23,484 bases of DNA from positions 1-23,484 of IMG/VR virus record IMGVR_UViG_3300033894_000047; one strand, written 5' to 3'. The DNA is from a virus. The notes below the pieces were generated by a model. That model made no database searches, was not told the origin of the DNA, and worked only from the letters and a program-made list of their open reading frames with translations. This document shows positions 1 to 10,867 of the stretch, piece by piece. The position numbers were made by a program, and so were the translations under genes. Every line of letters begins with the position of its first letter. Position 1 is the first letter of the stretch.

Positions 1-77
1 AGGAAGTCCCGGAAGGGGGCGGGGATGACCACCCGCCCTTTGTCGTCCAGGCTGTACTGGTACTCGCCGAAGGGCAT
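1..77 (-). CDS. mraZ: MraZ transcriptional regulator, N-terminal part (runs off the window)
   Basis: The minus strand from the ATG at 77 reads MPFGEY, then QYSLDDKGRVVIP, then APFRDFL, and leaves the window at residue 25. This is the signature start of MraZ, the SpoVT/AbrB-type regulator that heads the division and cell-wall (dcw) cluster in most bacteria. MraZ is known to bind TGGG direct repeats in its own promoter, and such repeats lie upstream at 189-225. It is a host gene and marks the left chromosomal flank of the prophage. The gene is partial only because the window ends. Confidence 0.9.
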   Translation of the reverse strand, partial: MPFGEYQYSLDDKGRVVIPAPFRDF

Positions 78-155
78 CTCCCACCCGCTCCCACCTCCGC
101 GGGGGCCGGCCAAGGTGGCTCGGGAAAGTGTGGGCCGTGCCCGGGCGGGGCTTTC

Positions 156-171
156 GCCGGGGAGTATACCA
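156..171 (-). promoter_or_regulatory. mraZ promoter, extended -10
   Basis: On the minus strand TGGTATACT (171 to 163) is a good extended -10 box, about 85 nt upstream of the mraZ ATG. No clear -35 is seen, which an extended -10 tolerates. The start point (~156) is inferred. Confidence 0.5.
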
Positions 172-188
172 CGCAACCCCCACAGATT

Positions 189-225
189 TCCACTACCTCC
201 CACCTTGGTCCCACCTACCACCCAC
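189..225 (-). promoter_or_regulatory. MraZ box array
   Basis: The minus strand carries TGGGT, TGGGA, TGGGA and TGGAA at about 11, 11 and 10 bp intervals, just upstream of the extended -10. Direct TGGGN repeats at helical spacing are the known MraZ operator, so this is probably the autoregulatory site of mraZ and the dcw operon. Confidence 0.7.
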
Positions 226-234
226 CCCTCGGGC

Positions 235-264
235 GAAAAAAATCCCCGAGCCTGCGCTCGGGGG
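235..264 (-). terminator. Intrinsic terminator of rnpB (minus strand)
   Basis: The minus strand has CCCCGAG-CGCAGG-CTCGGGG (263 to 244) followed by a T run at 242 to 236. It lies directly after the rnpB 3' end and before the MraZ boxes. Confidence 0.8.
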
Positions 265-309
265 CCCCAGGATAGGGCGTAAGCCGGGTTCTGTTTTACG
301 CGGTCATCT
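265..309 (-). ncRNA. rnpB: 3'-terminal fragment of RNase P RNA
   Basis: The minus strand reads GATGACCGCG, then TAAAACAGAACCCGGCTTA, then CGCCCTATCCTGGGG. ACAGAACCCGGCTTA is the nearly invariant 3' end of bacterial type A RNase P RNA. The final CGCCC...CCTGGGG is exactly complementary to CCCCAGG..GGGCG at 23331-23343, the 5' strand of helix P1, so both pieces belong to the same RNA. Only about 45 nt remain. Recognisable rnpB sequence stops around 309, where the phage terminus begins. A complete gene in this orientation would continue to the right on the minus strand, but it does not. Confidence 0.85.
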
Positions 310-600
310 TGTAAGCGAGCATGCTTTAAGTTAGTTGGTTTAAGACCCGGGAAAAGGCGGCAATAGGCGGGAAAAGGCGGTGAGAAACGCGAAAACAGGC
401 GGCGGCGAGGCGGCAAAAAGCGGCGGCACCCGGAAAGGGGGGTGCGTCATGCTTTTGGTAAGAAAGTGCCGGTCAGCCCGTGCTGAAGGCAAAAACACGC
501 TGTCTACAACGGCAAAGTGCGATGAAGAAGGGCTGACTCTCAAAAGTATTAACTAAGTCCGAGTATGCTTTAGGTAAGAAAAGAGCATGCTCCAGGTAAG
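310..600 (+). repeat. Phage terminus with four transposase-site-like direct repeats
   Basis: A 15-bp motif, consensus (C/T)ATGCTTTAGGTAAG, occurs in the same orientation at 320-334 (CATGCTTTAAGTTAG), 448-462 (CATGCTTTTGGTAAG), 564-578 (TATGCTTTAGGTAAG) and 586-600 (CATGCTCCAGGTAAG). Spacings are 128, 116 and 22 bp. The terminus itself starts with TG, as Mu ends do. Mu ends contain three transposase sites per end with unequal spacing, so by position and pattern these are the best candidates for the binding sites of the transposase encoded at 8911. Binding is inferred. Confidence 0.65.
351..423. repeat. Helically phased AAAAGGCGG tracts
   Basis: AGGCGG, mostly preceded by short A tracts, starts at 355, 365, 375, 397 and 408, a spacing of 10, 10, 22 and 11 bp. 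The array fills the gap between the first two transposase-site-like repeats. Phased A tracts tend to bend DNA, and in Mu the equivalent spacer is bent by HU. A bend-assisting role is inference. Confidence 0.45.
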
Positions 601-859
601 TGACAAAAAGCTAGTTCAGACCGGCAAAAACTGCTACGGACTTGACATAGAAGGGCTAATATTCAATGAGAGAAGAAAACCCGCATCAAAAAGGCATAAA
701 GGCGGTTTATGCATCTTAATGCTGTCTAGTAGACAGCGTGGCCTAAAGGCCAAGGGGGTGAGTAGACACCGTAGACAGCATCGGTGGATCGCCACGGAGG
801 CCCTTTTGGACGGCATTATTCACACTTTGCATAGTAGTAGACAGCGTGACGCTGTCTAC
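497..859. repeat. GTAGACAGCGT repeat cluster with perfect palindrome
   Basis: The 11-mer GTAGACAGCGT, or its complement, occurs complete at 497-507 (minus), 729-739 (plus), 837-847 (plus) and 849-859 (minus). Shorter copies lie at 721-728, 762-768 and 771-779. The last two full copies form a perfect 23-bp palindrome with an 11-bp arm and one central base. The copies at 721-737 form a second palindrome. No gene is convincing here and the region is much AT-richer than its surroundings. It looks like a binding-site array (enhancer, operator or iteron-like); the ligand is unknown. Confidence 0.6.
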
Positions 860-1041
860 CGGTCAAAACTAAACATAGCCTGCCAGTATGCAAATCTACC
901 TCTCATGAAAAGCGCTATAATTTTTGCCCCTCTCCTCCCCGGCACCATCCTCCCCTGACCCGGGGCTGGCCCGAGGGGCACTAGAAGGAGCCGCGGCCGG
1001 GCTACCGGCCCGCCTGGCGCGGGTCCTGGGCCTAGAGGAGG
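860..1041. other. Non-coding stretch, no gene seen
   Basis: No supported gene lies between the repeat cluster and the degenerate ORFs at 1042-1273. TATAAT-like bases occur near 915 without a matching -35. GC-rich dyads such as GGCCGG-gcta-CCGGCC near 997-1012 and a GGAGG...CCTCC dyad near 1035-1055 are visible, but neither has a proper T tail. Confidence 0.4.
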
Positions 1042-1129
1042 TCAAAAATCCTCCTTTGACTGGCTTTGCTTCCCCCCGTACTCCTTCAGCGCCGCCCTAA
1101 AAGCCTGCCGCGCGTACTTTTCCTCCGCC

Positions 1130-1273
1130 TCATTGCGGCACACCCACTCTGGCTAGCTCTGGAGCTATCTTGTGGTCCGCCACCCTCTTGTGGTAGACTT
1201 GTTGTGGTAGACTTGAGGTGTACTCCACTCGGGCGGCGGGGTGCTCCCACACCCCGCTAAGTGCTTTTCTCAT
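1130..1273 (-). CDS. Small ORF of unknown function, possibly degenerate
   Basis: ATG at 1273 follows a good ribosome site (AGGAGG, 6 nt upstream) just after the chaperone extension and opens 47 codons ending in TGA at 1130. The protein begins MRKALSGVWEHPAARVEY and is not recognised. In another frame the next 110 bases (1042-1152) stay open and look more like coding sequence (CRNEAEEKYARQAFRAALKE), but they are preceded by two TAG codons. Together they suggest the remnant of a frameshifted gene at the place where a tape-measure gene would be expected. It contains a 13-bp direct repeat (AAGTCTACCACAA). Confidence 0.3.
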   Translation of the reverse strand: MRKALSGVWEHPAARVEYTSSLPQQVYHKRVADHKIAPELARVGVPQ

Positions 1274-1318
1274 ACCGCTTCCTCCTGAAGCTCCTGTTTA
1301 GGCGAAGCCCCCGGGCCT

Positions 1319-1728
1319 TTACCCGGGGGTCTTGGCCTGGAGGTAGCGCTTCTCCAACCAGACGGCCTGGTGGGCGAGCTCTAGGAAGGCCTCAAAGTCC
1401 TCCGGGGGTTCGCGGTGGAGCCAGTGGCGGATGAGGGCCTGGAGCTGGGCGATGGGCGGGAGGTCGGCGTCCAGGCTCCTCAGGCGGTCGGGAAACCCAA
1501 AAGCTCCAGGATCCCGTTCGCCGCCTGGAGGGCGAGGCCGGGCTTCTCCTCCAAGAGGGCCTTCCAGGCCTCGGGCTCCTCGGCGAGCTCGGCGGTGAAC
1601 TCAATGGCGGCGCTCACCGGGGCCCGGGAGATGCGGGCGGTGAGGCGGTTGATCTGGTCCACGGTGGGGCGCTTGAAGGCGAAGCGCCGGCCCCCGTGCT
1701 CAAGCGTGTAGAAGGGCTTCTTCTCCAT
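1319..1728 (-). CDS. Tail assembly chaperone, -1 frameshift (GT-type) product
   Basis: If ribosomes slip -1 at TTTGGGTTTCCCG (1501 to 1489), translation avoids the TGA at 1480 and continues DRLRSLDADLPPIAQLQALI and so on to TAA at 1319. That adds 56 residues, for a fusion of about 136. The extension is a clean high-GC reading frame with no start of its own. It ends just before the next ribosome site. Long-tailed phages, including Mu at gp41, make a short and a frameshifted chaperone that together load the tape measure for tail assembly. The position after the tube gene fits exactly. No pseudoknot was identified. Confidence 0.75.
1480..1728 (-). CDS. Tail assembly chaperone, short (G-type) product, gp41-like
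   Basis: The protein is 82 residues (MEKKPFYTLEHGGRRFAF ...), acidic and helical after residue 25, ending LLGFPTA. It follows the tail tube by 9 nt and lies on the same minus-strand late transcript. Size, position after the tube, and the slippery site at its 3' end identify it as the short chaperone form of a Mu/lambda-like tail module. Sequence similarity to a specific family is not obvious by eye, so the call rests on context and the frameshift. Its normal partner, the tape measure, is missing downstream. Confidence 0.75.
   Translation of the reverse strand: MEKKPFYTLEHGGRRFAFKRPTVDQINRLTARISRAPVSAAIEFTAELAEEPEAWKALLEEKPGLALQAANGILELLGFPTA
1489..1501 (-). promoter_or_regulatory. Programmed -1 frameshift site, three overlapping slippery heptamers
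   Basis: In the zero frame the minus strand reads CTT TTG GGT TTC CCG. T-TTG-GGT, G-GGT-TTC and T-TTC-CCG are each of the X-XXY-YYZ form, so slippage is possible at three successive codon pairs, all leading to the same -1 frame. Confidence 0.75.
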
Positions 1729-2162: not shown

Positions 2163-3584
2163 TCACGCCTTGGCCTGGGCCAGGAAGGGGTTCTCAAAGC
2201 CGATGTCCAAGGTTATCTCCCTGAGATAGCCCAAGGGGACGACCCGCACCTGCAGGAGGAGGGTGCGGGAGGCCAGGATGTCCTGGCCCGGGGGCACCAC
2301 CACCCGGCCCCGGGCGATCTCCCCCAGGGACTGCATGACCCGGAGAGGGGTGTTGGCCCGGGCGATGAGGCTGGCCAGGGAGGCGTTCAGGTCCGTGGGG
2401 TCCACGTGCCACTGCACGAAGTCCAGGAGGGCCTGGCGGACCTGGGTGACCGCCTTGTCCATGACCCTCCGGTTCTGGACGGTGGCGTAGTCGCTGGTGG
2501 GGGGCGCCGCCATGCGGCCCTCCACCAGGTAGACCCCGTCCCGCCCGATGAGCCGGTAGACGGTGGTGAAGCCGGCCGTGTCCAGGGCCAGGGCGTGGGC
2601 GTTGTTGAAGAGGCTCTTCTTGCCGTAGTCCGTCTGCACGAAGGGGGCCACGGCCACCACGCCTGGGAGGGGCCCCAGCTGGACCCAGGCGGGGGAGACG
2701 TGGACCCGGTTCCGGGAGATCCGGGCCCCCACCCGGGAGGCCAGGCTCTGGACCTCCAGCCTCCCGCTGAGGGTGTCCACCACCTCCCCCCAGGCGGCCA
2801 CGATCATGACCCGCTTGGAGGTGAAGCCCCCCTTCTCCGCGAGCCTGGCGTTCACCCAGGCGTCCGCGTCGTTGCCCGGGGCCGCGGTCTCGGTGAGGAA
2901 CCAGATGTAGCGGAACTGATTCTCCGCCTCCGTGGCCAGGGCGTCCAGGGCGGCCCACATGGCGGCGTCGGTGGGCTGGGCCACCTGGATGTACTCGTAG
3001 AGGATGGGGGCGTTGAGGGCCTCCCGCACGGCGGCCTGGACGCTGGAGACGCTGGCCCTGGGGGCGGTGGCCTGGAAGCGGTAGACCGCCCCCGCGGTGT
3101 AGGTGCCGGTGCCGAAGTTCAAGGTGAGCCCGGTGCCGGGGAGGGTGTAGCTGGCGGTGGTGACGATCTCGGCGCTCACGGTGTCCCCGCCGTCCAGGCT
3201 GTAGGTGAAGGTGGCGGTGCCCACGGCCCCGCCCCGGACGATCCGCACCACGATCTCGTAGGCGTCCAGGGGGCTTCCGCTCACGCTCACGGCGGGGGAG
3301 GCGGGGTTGGCGCTGTCGGCGGTGACGCTGCCCGCGATGTCCCCCACGGCCCGCACCGCGTAGACCTGGCCGCCTCCGTAAGCCAGCTGGTCGGCCACGG
3401 CCCGGGCCAGGGGGCCGGTGCCGAGGAAGGTGGGCACCTGGGAGAGGTCGGAGAGGCCCACCACCTGGTTCACGGGCCCCTTGGAGGAGACCCCCACCAC
3501 CACCCGCTGGCCGTCCCCGCTGGGGGCCACGATGCCCAAGCCCCCGTCCTGGATCTCGGGGTATACTCCTGGCAGTCTAGCCAC
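2163..3584 (-). CDS. Phage tail sheath protein (Mu L-like)
   Basis: The protein is 473 residues. GTG at 3584 is chosen because of the GGAGGTG ribosome site 4 nt upstream, and it gives VARLPGVYPEIQDGGLG. The N-terminal PGVYPE motif, an Ig-like insertion around residues 100-170 (DAYEIVVRIVRGGAVGTATF), the central MIVAAWGEVV region and the C-terminal LASLIARANTPLRVMQSLGE part are typical of contractile tail sheaths of the Mu L family. Presence of a sheath makes this a myovirus-type tail. It sits between a small unknown gene and the tube gene in the minus-strand late operon. Confidence 0.9.
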   Translation of the reverse strand: MARLPGVYPEIQDGGLGIVAPSGDGQRVVVGVSSKGPVNQVVGLSDLSQVPTFLGTGPLARAVADQLAYGGGQVYAVRAVGDIAGSVTADSANPASPAVSVSGSPLDAYEIVVRIVRGGAVGTATFTYSLDGGDTVSAEIVTTASYTLPGTGLTLNFGTGTYTAGAVYRFQATAPRASVSSVQAAVREALNAPILYEYIQVAQPTDAAMWAALDALATEAENQFRYIWFLTETAAPGNDADAWVNARLAEKGGFTSKRVMIVAAWGEVVDTLSGRLEVQSLASRVGARISRNRVHVSPAWVQLGPLPGVVAVAPFVQTDYGKKSLFNNAHALALDTAGFTTVYRLIGRDGVYLVEGRMAAPPTSDYATVQNRRVMDKAVTQVRQALLDFVQWHVDPTDLNASLASLIARANTPLRVMQSLGEIARGRVVVPPGQDILASRTLLLQVRVVPLGYLREITLDIGFENPFLAQAKA

Positions 3585-8705: not shown

Positions 8706-8930
8706 AAGGCCCGCTTAAATCTTCACAAAGTTGAACGCCTCCTGGAGGAGCGCGGATGGTCCAAATACCGCCTGTCCCGCTTGGCTGGGCTAAGTTATGG
8801 GCATGTGATTATGCTTCTCCAGGGGCAACGTCAGAATCCGTCCATAGCTACCGTTGCTAAGCTGGCCCAGGCCCTTGGTGTACCTATTGAGGAGCTTTTG
8901 GAGGAGGAGGATGGCGTGGTTACCCATTGA
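8697..8930 (+). CDS. Ner/Cro-like XRE-family DNA-binding protein
   Basis: The protein is 77 residues from ATG at 8697 (an in-frame ATG at 8679 lies inside the promoter). LHKVERLLEERGWSKYRLSR, LAGLSYGHVIMLLQG and PSIATVAKLAQALGVPIEEL form a complete XRE helix-turn-helix domain with almost nothing else. As first gene of the rightward early operon, opposite the repressor, it fits the Ner/Cro role of shutting down early or repressor transcription. It overlaps the transposase start by 20 nt. Confidence 0.85.
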   Translation: MRVKARLNLHKVERLLEERGWSKYRLSRLAGLSYGHVIMLLQGQRQNPSIATVAKLAQALGVPIEELLEEEDGVVTH

Positions 8931-9807
8931 CGAAGCCGCCGCTCTGTTGGGGGTTTCCAGAGCGTGGGCTTGGAAGGTAATCAAGGAAAAGGGTCTGCCA
9001 ACTAGGCCTGAGCGGATGGGTCGCGTGTACCGTACCCTAGTTGACGTTGATCTCCTCGCTCTGGCTTTGGGCAAGGGAGGCAAGGACGCGGAGGAGCCCG
9101 TAGAGCTTCACCCTTCCAGCGGTACGAGGGCTTGGGCTGATGTGGCCCATGTGGCCGAGGAGTATGGTCGGTTACCAAGGGGCCTGCGATGGGAGCTCGT
9201 CCTCCATGCCGCCGATCGGTGGGGTGTGACCCCCGAGTACGCTTACCGAGTCATTCGGCGCTATCGGGAGCAAGGGGTGAGTGGCATCACGCCGAAGGCG
9301 CGCCAGGATAAGGGGGCACACCGGATTCCCGTTGAACTTCGCCAGCTCATCCTGGGTCTGAAGTTGGCTCACCCCGGAGCCTCGGCCTCAAAGATTCTGC
9401 GCATTATCCAGTTGAACGACCCCGGTCTTTTGCGATACAAGCCGTATAAAAACGGCTCTACCATAAACACGCTTTCCGCCTCCACGGTACGTAGGTTAAT
9501 CAAGGCAGCTGAGAGCATCCCCGCATTCCGCTGGGCCCTCCTCTCTGACGAGGGTAGACGGGAGTTCGCCCGTACCTGGGCGGGGCACGTCCTGGCCGAG
9601 TACCCCATGCAGATGGTCATGGTGGACATGACCCGATGTGACGTCTTCGTCTTCAATCCCGATGAGGATACCGCTTACCGCCTTCGCATTCACGTGGCTC
9701 TGGACGTTTATTCCGGGGCCTCGCCCAGTTTGGTTTTCAGCCGCGAGGAGTCCCAAGTCCCCACGGACCAGCTCCTTATCCTGATGACCCAGGACAAGCA
9801 AGAGTGA
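8911..9807 (+). CDS. MuA-like DDE transposase, N-terminal part (frameshifted gene)
   Basis: The fragment is 298 residues from ATG at 8911, with GAGGAGGAGG upstream. Residues 1-50 are a helix-turn-helix (LPIDEAAALLGVSRAWAWKV). Residues ~75-205 are further helical DNA-binding regions (TPEYAYRVIRRYREQGVSGI). Residues 232-295 start the rve/DDE catalytic core with the first Asp in MVMVDM (D239). The frame ends TQDKQE at a TGA (9805), but the rest of the core continues at once in the +1 frame, so the gene carries a one-base-type shift around 9795-9805. This would disable transposition unless the shift is programmed or a sequencing error. Confidence 0.85.
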   Translation: MAWLPIDEAAALLGVSRAWAWKVIKEKGLPTRPERMGRVYRTLVDVDLLALALGKGGKDAEEPVELHPSSGTRAWADVAHVAEEYGRLPRGLRWELVLHAADRWGVTPEYAYRVIRRYREQGVSGITPKARQDKGAHRIPVELRQLILGLKLAHPGASASKILRIIQLNDPGLLRYKPYKNGSTINTLSASTVRRLIKAAESIPAFRWALLSDEGRREFARTWAGHVLAEYPMQMVMVDMTRCDVFVFNPDEDTAYRLRIHVALDVYSGASPSLVFSREESQVPTDQLLILMTQDKQE

Positions 9808-10867
9808 ACTGGCCCCGTCATGGGACATCTTCGGCATCCCGGAGCGGATTTATTGGGACAACGGCCGGGTTTATCGCTCGGAGAAGAGCGAGCACTTCGC
9901 CCGCCAGCTGGGCATTGAGCTGGTCTACTCCCGCCCCCGGGTTTCCCACACTCGGGGGCGCGTTGAGAGGTTTTTCGGTGCGTTCCACCAGGAGTTTGAA
10001 GCCCTTTTGCCTGGTTACGCGGGCCGGGACGCCACCGAGCGGGATTCTACCCAGCTGAAAAGACTGATCGCCAACACTCGGGCTTGGGTGGCGGCGGGCA
10101 TGCCTCCCGAGGAGGACCCCTACCCGAACCGCCTCCTCCTGGAGGAGGAGTACAAAACCAAGGCCTTGGCCTGGCTCCTTCAGGACTGGCACCGGAAGCC
10201 GGTGGACGGGAATCTTTCCCGGGCCGACCTTTTCAGGGCTTTTGTTCCCCGCCACCGTCTCGTGAGGTTGGACCTCGGCGACCTTTATCTCCTTACCGCC
10301 TACCAGACCGAGCGGGTGGTGCGGGGGAACGGCACCGTGGCCTACAACGGCAAGACCTACTATCTCCGCCCCGAGGACGGATCCCTCATTCCCTGGCAAG
10401 GGCAGAAGATCGTGGTCCTGGACGTCCGGGTTCTGCCCGGCCAGCCGCTTCGGGCCGCTCTGCGTCAGCCTGATGGGAGCCTAAAGGTCCTCGGGGAACT
10501 CGTTCCCGAGCCCCTGCGGGCCGACAGCCTCGAGGCCAAGGCCAAGAGGCTGGCCGATAAGGCCGCCATCCGGGCCGTGCGGGAGGCGGCCCAGGAACTG
10601 GCCGCCCAGCTGGGCCCCGCCGTGCGGTTTGAGGAGATTCTGGAACGCCTTTCTGGCCTTGCCCCTCTGGCCCGGCGGGAGCGGGTCCGCCCGATGGCCC
10701 AGGAGCCCCTCCCCCGTCCCTCGGAGGAGGAGATCCGGGCCGCCGCGGCCGAGCTGGAGGACGGCCTGGACGACCTGATTTGGGAGCCCATTGCCCTGGG
10801 CGAGAAGTGGCTCCGGGAGCGGGGCCTTCTCCCCTCGGGCGAAGGGGAAACGGGAGGTGAAGCATGA
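9788..10867 (+). CDS. MuA-like DDE transposase, C-terminal part (frameshifted gene)
   Basis: This is the continuation of the transposase in the next frame: SELAPSWDIFGIPERIYWDN carries the second catalytic Asp (WDNG), and 35 residues later RGRVERFF carries the Glu, a D35E arrangement. Beyond the core come KRLIANTRAWVAAGM, a Mu-type C-terminal beta-barrel (VRLDLGDLYLLTAYQTERVV ... YNGKTYYLRPEDG) and a long helical tail that in MuA-type proteins contacts MuB and ClpX. Removing one base, for example an A in AAGCAAGAG, would join the halves in frame. The stop overlaps the MuB-like start (ATGA). Confidence 0.85.
   Translation, partial: PRTSKSELAPSWDIFGIPERIYWDNGRVYRSEKSEHFARQLGIELVYSRPRVSHTRGRVERFFGAFHQEFEALLPGYAGRDATERDSTQLKRLIANTRAWVAAGMPPEEDPYPNRLLLEEEYKTKALAWLLQDWHRKPVDGNLSRADLFRAFVPRHRLVRLDLGDLYLLTAYQTERVVRGNGTVAYNGKTYYLRPEDGSLIPWQGQKIVVLDVRVLPGQPLRAALRQPDGSLKVLGELVPEPLRADSLEAKAKRLADKAAIRAVREAAQELAAQLGPAVRFEEILERLSGLAPLARRERVRPMAQEPLPRPSEEEIRAAAAELEDGLDDLIWEPIALGEKWLRERGLLPSGEGETGGEA

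Follow-up and report, generated by a model that had tools for sequence, protein, structure and literature searches.

The DNA that we analysed, referred to as the window, is an IMG/VR virus record of 23,484 bases, and the virus is a Mu-like phage of the hot-spring bacterium Thermus with a contractile tail. Its minus-strand genes encode a Mu-like protease, a Mu gpT-like major capsid protein, a tail sheath (2163..3584, 473 aa; PHROG 907 tail sheath, E 2.8e-53; Pfam DUF2586) and a tail tube protein (2151-1738, 137 aa; PHROG 4579 'tail protein', E 2.6e-29). Directly downstream of the tube gene lies a small gene of 82 codons for a probable G-like tail assembly chaperone (1728-1480, minus strand, with its TGA stop at 1482-1480).

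The left end of the window, on the minus strand, looks like the start of the mraZ gene that adjoins a T. brockianus prophage, and mraZ also flanks two published prophages, those of T. aquaticus Y51MC23 and Thermus sp. 2.9 (PMC4605624). Both in the T. brockianus contig (G003; L122-L124, positions 112975-141201) and at the left end of the window (1-1300), the chaperone gene is the terminal phage gene, on the minus strand and beside mraZ. In the T. brockianus prophage the tape measure and baseplate genes (Pfam PhageMin_Tail, Baseplate_J) lie about 26 kb from the chaperone gene on the opposite strand. The chaperone gene of lambda and of Mu directly precedes the tape measure gene. Between the last phage gene and mraZ, at 490-872, the window carries CACGCTGTCTAC / GTAGACAGCGTG both as repeats and as inverted repeats, and relatives carry similar repeats of other sequence (ACGCTGTCTCA, ACGCTGTGCC); the repeats beside mraZ are perhaps end sites for transposase binding. 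Between mraZ and the phage, a stretch at 250-300 gives the impression of an RNase P RNA gene in its 3' part, with no Rfam match above threshold. The MuA-like transposase gene (8854-10867, plus strand) is split between frames near 9807, while the T. brockianus relative has a single 649-aa ORF; given this broken gene, the prophage copy in the window may be inactive or defective.

The 82-codon gene ends with the codons GAG CTT TTG GGT TTC CCG ACC GCC TGA, and TTTGGGTTTCCCG occurs once in the window, on the minus strand at 1489-1501. A reading of the sequence by itself had described three overlapping, in-phase -1 heptamers in the tail chaperone gene, and we find them on the minus strand as described: T_TTG_GGT (1495..1501), G_GGT_TTC (1492..1498) and T_TTC_CCG (1489..1495) each conform to the canonical X_XXY_YYZ pattern in phase with the 82-codon ORF, and the 0-frame TGA sits nine bases past the central one. 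The clean -1 extension that the same reading proposed is indeed open, although it runs for 57 codons (1492..1322, stop TAA at 1321-1319) rather than the 56 given. As read from the sequence, a -1 slip at any of the three heptamers would yield identical residues (...ELLGFPDRLRSL...), since at each of these steps the -1 codon specifies the same amino acid as the 0 codon, so mass spectrometry of the shared product (...ELLGFPDR...) could reveal the fusion and not the heptamer that acted.

We gathered relatives from viral contigs and genomes through the neighbouring tail tube protein, and also through the chaperone and the extension; the relatives that came through the tail tube gene are not conditioned on slippage. 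The site reads CTT TTG GGT TTC CCG in the window's clade, with the triple present in all seven of its IMG/VR loci, and CTG GGT TTC CCG in L023, which thereby has the central and the downstream heptamer. It reads CTG GGT TTC CAG in six further loci (L018, L029, L030, L046, L047 and L050), TTG GGT TTC CAG preceded by C in L031, CTG GGT TTG CCC in L024 and L025, and CTG GGT TTT CCG in L027, L032, L048 and L051. Both flanking heptamers thus occur together in the window's close clade only, the upstream one being confined to that clade and the downstream one to that clade and L023, and we regard both as lineage-specific and probably incidental. The central motif, in the form G_GGT_TTN, is common to every Thermus and Meiothermus relative examined, where it occupies one and the same position, with the 0-frame stop 9 or 12 nt further on, and is followed by a -1 extension of 55-63 codons; it is likely the functional -1 slip site. 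Among nine representatives TGGGTTT is the sole fully invariant 7-nt block of the gene, whose other codon-invariant columns are TTC, CAG, ACC and GCC. GGT is a rare Gly codon in a Thermus genome (8.3%) yet is invariant at the site in 9/9 representatives, and in L024 the Phe at the site has changed to Leu while GGGTTT stays.

Ten more distant phages (L162-L171), found through the extension, have a clearly different upstream gene. This gene ends in GGA AAC followed directly by the stop and preceded by G, giving an in-phase G_GGA_AAC, and its -1 extension spans 53-62 codons. L036 was considered as a relative lacking a heptamer and rejected: GGG TTT is out of phase there, but G_GGA_AAC lies two codons later. 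The presence of G_GGA_AAC in L036 and in L162-L171 indicates that a -1 shift at a single heptamer is the broad rule of the gene family, as judged by the motifs. Aligning the site in Thermus relatives, a check that the sequence-only reading had proposed, revealed, over all relatives examined, the central heptamer or G_GGA_AAC in each, and none of them has lost the slip heptamer while keeping the extension under its own start.

We then asked how unusual a triple is, taking as reference 263 Thermus ORFs of at least 200 aa (100,049 codons) from a related Thermus genome. These ORFs contain 976 in-phase X_XXY_YYZ heptamers, about one per 100 codons, and eleven runs of at least three overlapping heptamers, about one per 24 genes; overlapping triples numbered 12, compared to about 7 (sd 2.4) in a synonymous-codon shuffle. 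At the 39 in-phase GGGTTTN sites of ordinary Thermus genes, a heptamer overlaps upstream in 6, downstream in 8 and on both sides in 2. Given these two doubly flanked sites and the eleven runs, a triple in Thermus DNA is uncommon yet unremarkable, and GC-rich coding DNA yields such runs without a known frameshift role. Two features do go beyond chance: the central heptamer is conserved, and so is the -1 reading frame. A 17-mer spanning the triple matched eight IMG/VR contigs, of which seven are the window's clade; the eighth (L180) was set aside as an unrelated AT-rich virus in which the codons TTT GGG TTT CCC place the motif in another phase. A search on overlapping slippery frameshift sites found no papers in the body of literature covered.

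The three heptamers could instead all contribute, offering three successive chances to slip, with the G to GT ratio tuned upward in the window's clade, perhaps for high temperature. The triple would then act additively toward the same fusion peptide and raise the G-T share relative to relatives with a single heptamer. All three heptamers are canonical, in phase and lead to the same fusion peptide, so that no slip is selected against, whichever heptamer it uses; the upstream heptamer is created by CTT TTG, which the clade has in place of the GCC CTG of other lineages, and all seven IMG/VR loci of the clade share the triple. However, other Thermus and Meiothermus phages retain the extension with the central heptamer alone, chance produces doubly flanked GGGTTTN sites in ordinary Thermus genes at the frequency given above, and the flanking heptamers have the A-site codons GGT and CCG. 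In a systematic E. coli study, A-site UUN and AAN codons were more prone to shifting than CCN and GGN, and efficient -1 motifs worked best if the A-site tRNA could re-pair cognately (PMC4066793). The tRNAs of a Thermus genome carrying the same type of prophage include Phe-GAA, Gly-GCC/UCC/CCC, Leu-CAA/UAA and others, and Pro-CGG/UGG/GGG. On G_GGT_TTC, the A-site tRNA-Phe-GAA can exchange TTC for TTT and pair again, in line with the E. coli rule, although in the P site tRNA-Gly-GCC would be mismatched at the third position once it re-pairs from GGT to GGG, which counts against it. Both flanking heptamers leave third-position mismatches after re-pairing, and because of their A-site codons the published rules predict them to be poorer slip sites, a ranking that assumes the validity of E. 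coli rules in Thermus at 65-70 C. We therefore consider an additive triple unlikely; the flanking heptamers could add some slippage, perhaps to small effect. The sequence-only reading had suggested that three heptamers raise efficiency, set the G to GT ratio or suit high growth temperature. We find no support for these suggestions: the extension is kept with one heptamer, or with two in L023, and a role in heat is further weakened by the many single-heptamer relatives that are Thermus phages from hot hosts.

We next considered the extension as a protein. Ratios of pN/pS in the -1 frame were 0.05-0.56 for 13 of 14 pairs, whereas the other frames were mostly near or above 1; the fourteenth pair (L032-L051), compared ungapped, is saturated or out of register. 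A GC3 of about 0.95 marks the 0 frame up to the slip site and the -1 frame beyond it, and in the alignment of the extension, where conserved positions include AL, W and A.WLE.RY, homology starts right at the slip site. A scan of the -1 frame close to the site found no ATG, GTG or TTG start for the window, L004, L018, L024, L027, L031 or L050, while possible starts exist in a few relatives (a GTG in L023 and an ATG at -69 in L051). Alignment, pN/pS and start scan together reveal a conserved shifted-frame extension without its own start, those few relatives excepted, and they argue that the extension is a homologous, conserved protein under purifying selection in the -1 frame. Four IMG/VR proviruses (L007, L008, L012 and L013) break off exactly where the 0 frame of the chaperone gene stops, which drops the -1 extension from the record.

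The same observations make it very improbable that the locus holds two separate genes, the extension having a start codon of its own at which ribosomes might, for example, re-initiate past the 0-frame stop. The 0-frame stop does overlap the extension, and the in-frame GTG of L023 is preceded by GGGAG. Yet the seven sequences listed above offer no start codon near the site, separate genes would make the invariance of the slippery heptamer needless, and homology of the extension sets in exactly at the slip site. Slippage of RNA polymerase, producing a fusion mRNA as on the nine-T run of Thermus thermophilus dnaX (PMC5009743), is less credible still, since the longest run at the site is four T (TTTT), followed by GGG, and the site is CTGGGTTTC in most Thermus relatives, where runs do not exceed three.

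A search for a conserved stimulatory hairpin or pseudoknot, using RNAalifold on 12 sequences and single folds, found none. The consensus was weak (-12.2 kcal/mol, of which covariation contributes -0.92), pairing between the slip site and the far 3' end accounts for one of its two longest helices, and single-sequence folds were not consistently stable (z -2.4 to +0.6); an Rfam search gave no family match. Most relatives carry a GGAG-like element a few bases before the P-site codon, absent in L027 and L051. This element, which overlaps a Glu codon, is at most a candidate internal Shine-Dalgarno stimulator of frameshifting.

For the 82-aa protein, sequence searches matched PHROG 20303 'minor tail protein' as well as Pfam DUF6848, the latter at 31.6 bits where the cut-off is 27. 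Its predicted fold (AlphaFold2, mean pLDDT 92.6) most resembles RBSTP2171 of Bacillus stearothermophilus (PDB 3fgx; Z 11.5, rmsd 1.9 over 80 residues), a DUF6848 relative that is also related by sequence (E 3.3e-6) and is annotated as uncharacterised, without assigned function. The model's match to the HK97 tail assembly chaperone 2ob9 is weaker (Z 4.5, rmsd 4.0), as is that to YqbN (3klu, Z 4.3; a Foldseek E of 2.5 was noted alongside these weak chaperone matches). These weak fold matches no more than suggest chaperone kinship, and the identification as a chaperone rests mainly on gene position and frameshift architecture.

Considering the frame relation, the selected and homologous extension, the absence of an own start codon and the conserved heptamer, we think it highly probable that this is an ordinary programmed -1 frameshift of the lambda G/GT kind, in which the central heptamer would be the working element and the flanks probably add little. 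We infer the occurrence of frameshifting, its frequency and its function in tail assembly as follows. Most ribosomes would produce the 82-residue G-like protein, terminating at the TGA that comes nine bases after the slip site. A minority would slip by -1 on G_GGT_TTC, while tRNA-Gly occupies GGT in the P site and tRNA-Phe occupies TTC in the A site, and would go on to produce a G-T-like fusion of 136 residues. The expected roles, taken by analogy from lambda, would be binding of the tape measure protein for the G part and recruitment of tail tube subunits for the T part, with neither part staying in the virion. The two overlapping flanking heptamers would have arisen in the window's clade.

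The locus resembles lambda G/GT in having a small gene after the tube gene, an X_XXY_YYZ heptamer near its 3' end, and a -1 shift into a short extension without its own start. Lambda slips on G_GGA_AAG, and the present system differs in its G_GGT_TTN heptamer, in belonging to a contractile-tailed Mu-like phage and, in the T. brockianus relative, in a chaperone gene that is not beside the tape measure gene. Lambda-type -1 frameshifted tail chaperones and their counterparts were reportedly treated by Xu et al. in Mol Cell in 2004. Counterparts of the frameshifted lambda gpG/gpGT pair exist in most long-tailed phages (reviewed in PMC5009743). The locus shares with phage Mu its Mu-like head genes (gpT, protease I, gpF-like), a contractile tail and a frameshifted chaperone; however, the tail assembly genes of Mu use a -2 shift (PMC5009743; PMC4378225), whereas the window and all its relatives have the extension in the -1 frame. 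The Pseudomonas Mu-like siphophage PaMx73, for which a -1 shift at T_TTT_TTC was proposed in core ORFs 35/36 (PMC4378225), is likewise a transposable phage with a proposed -1 frameshift in its tail chaperone genes, but its heptamer and tail type are different, as is where the site lies with respect to the stop. A different tail chaperone family, with the extension in the +1 frame, is present in Thermus phage Riverbug (L028, 9985-9520) and a related provirus (L053, 1937-2405). TTT_C, a tetranucleotide reported to be prone to +1 shifting (PMC5009743), lies in the overlap of both (GAA TTT CGC and CGA TTT CTG), and in the provirus an ATG just past the stop is an alternative start.

As judged from these comparisons, the triple is a local feature of one clade, and the shift very likely one of the known G/GT kind with a single conserved slip site. 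Our literature searches found no paper describing G_GGT_TTN as a slip site conserved among phages of Thermus and Meiothermus. Reading G_GGT_TTC as the slip site corrects the annotation of a phage gene that some IMG/VR records truncate before its extension, and relatives carrying one, two or three heptamers form a natural set for asking whether overlapping heptamers add up.
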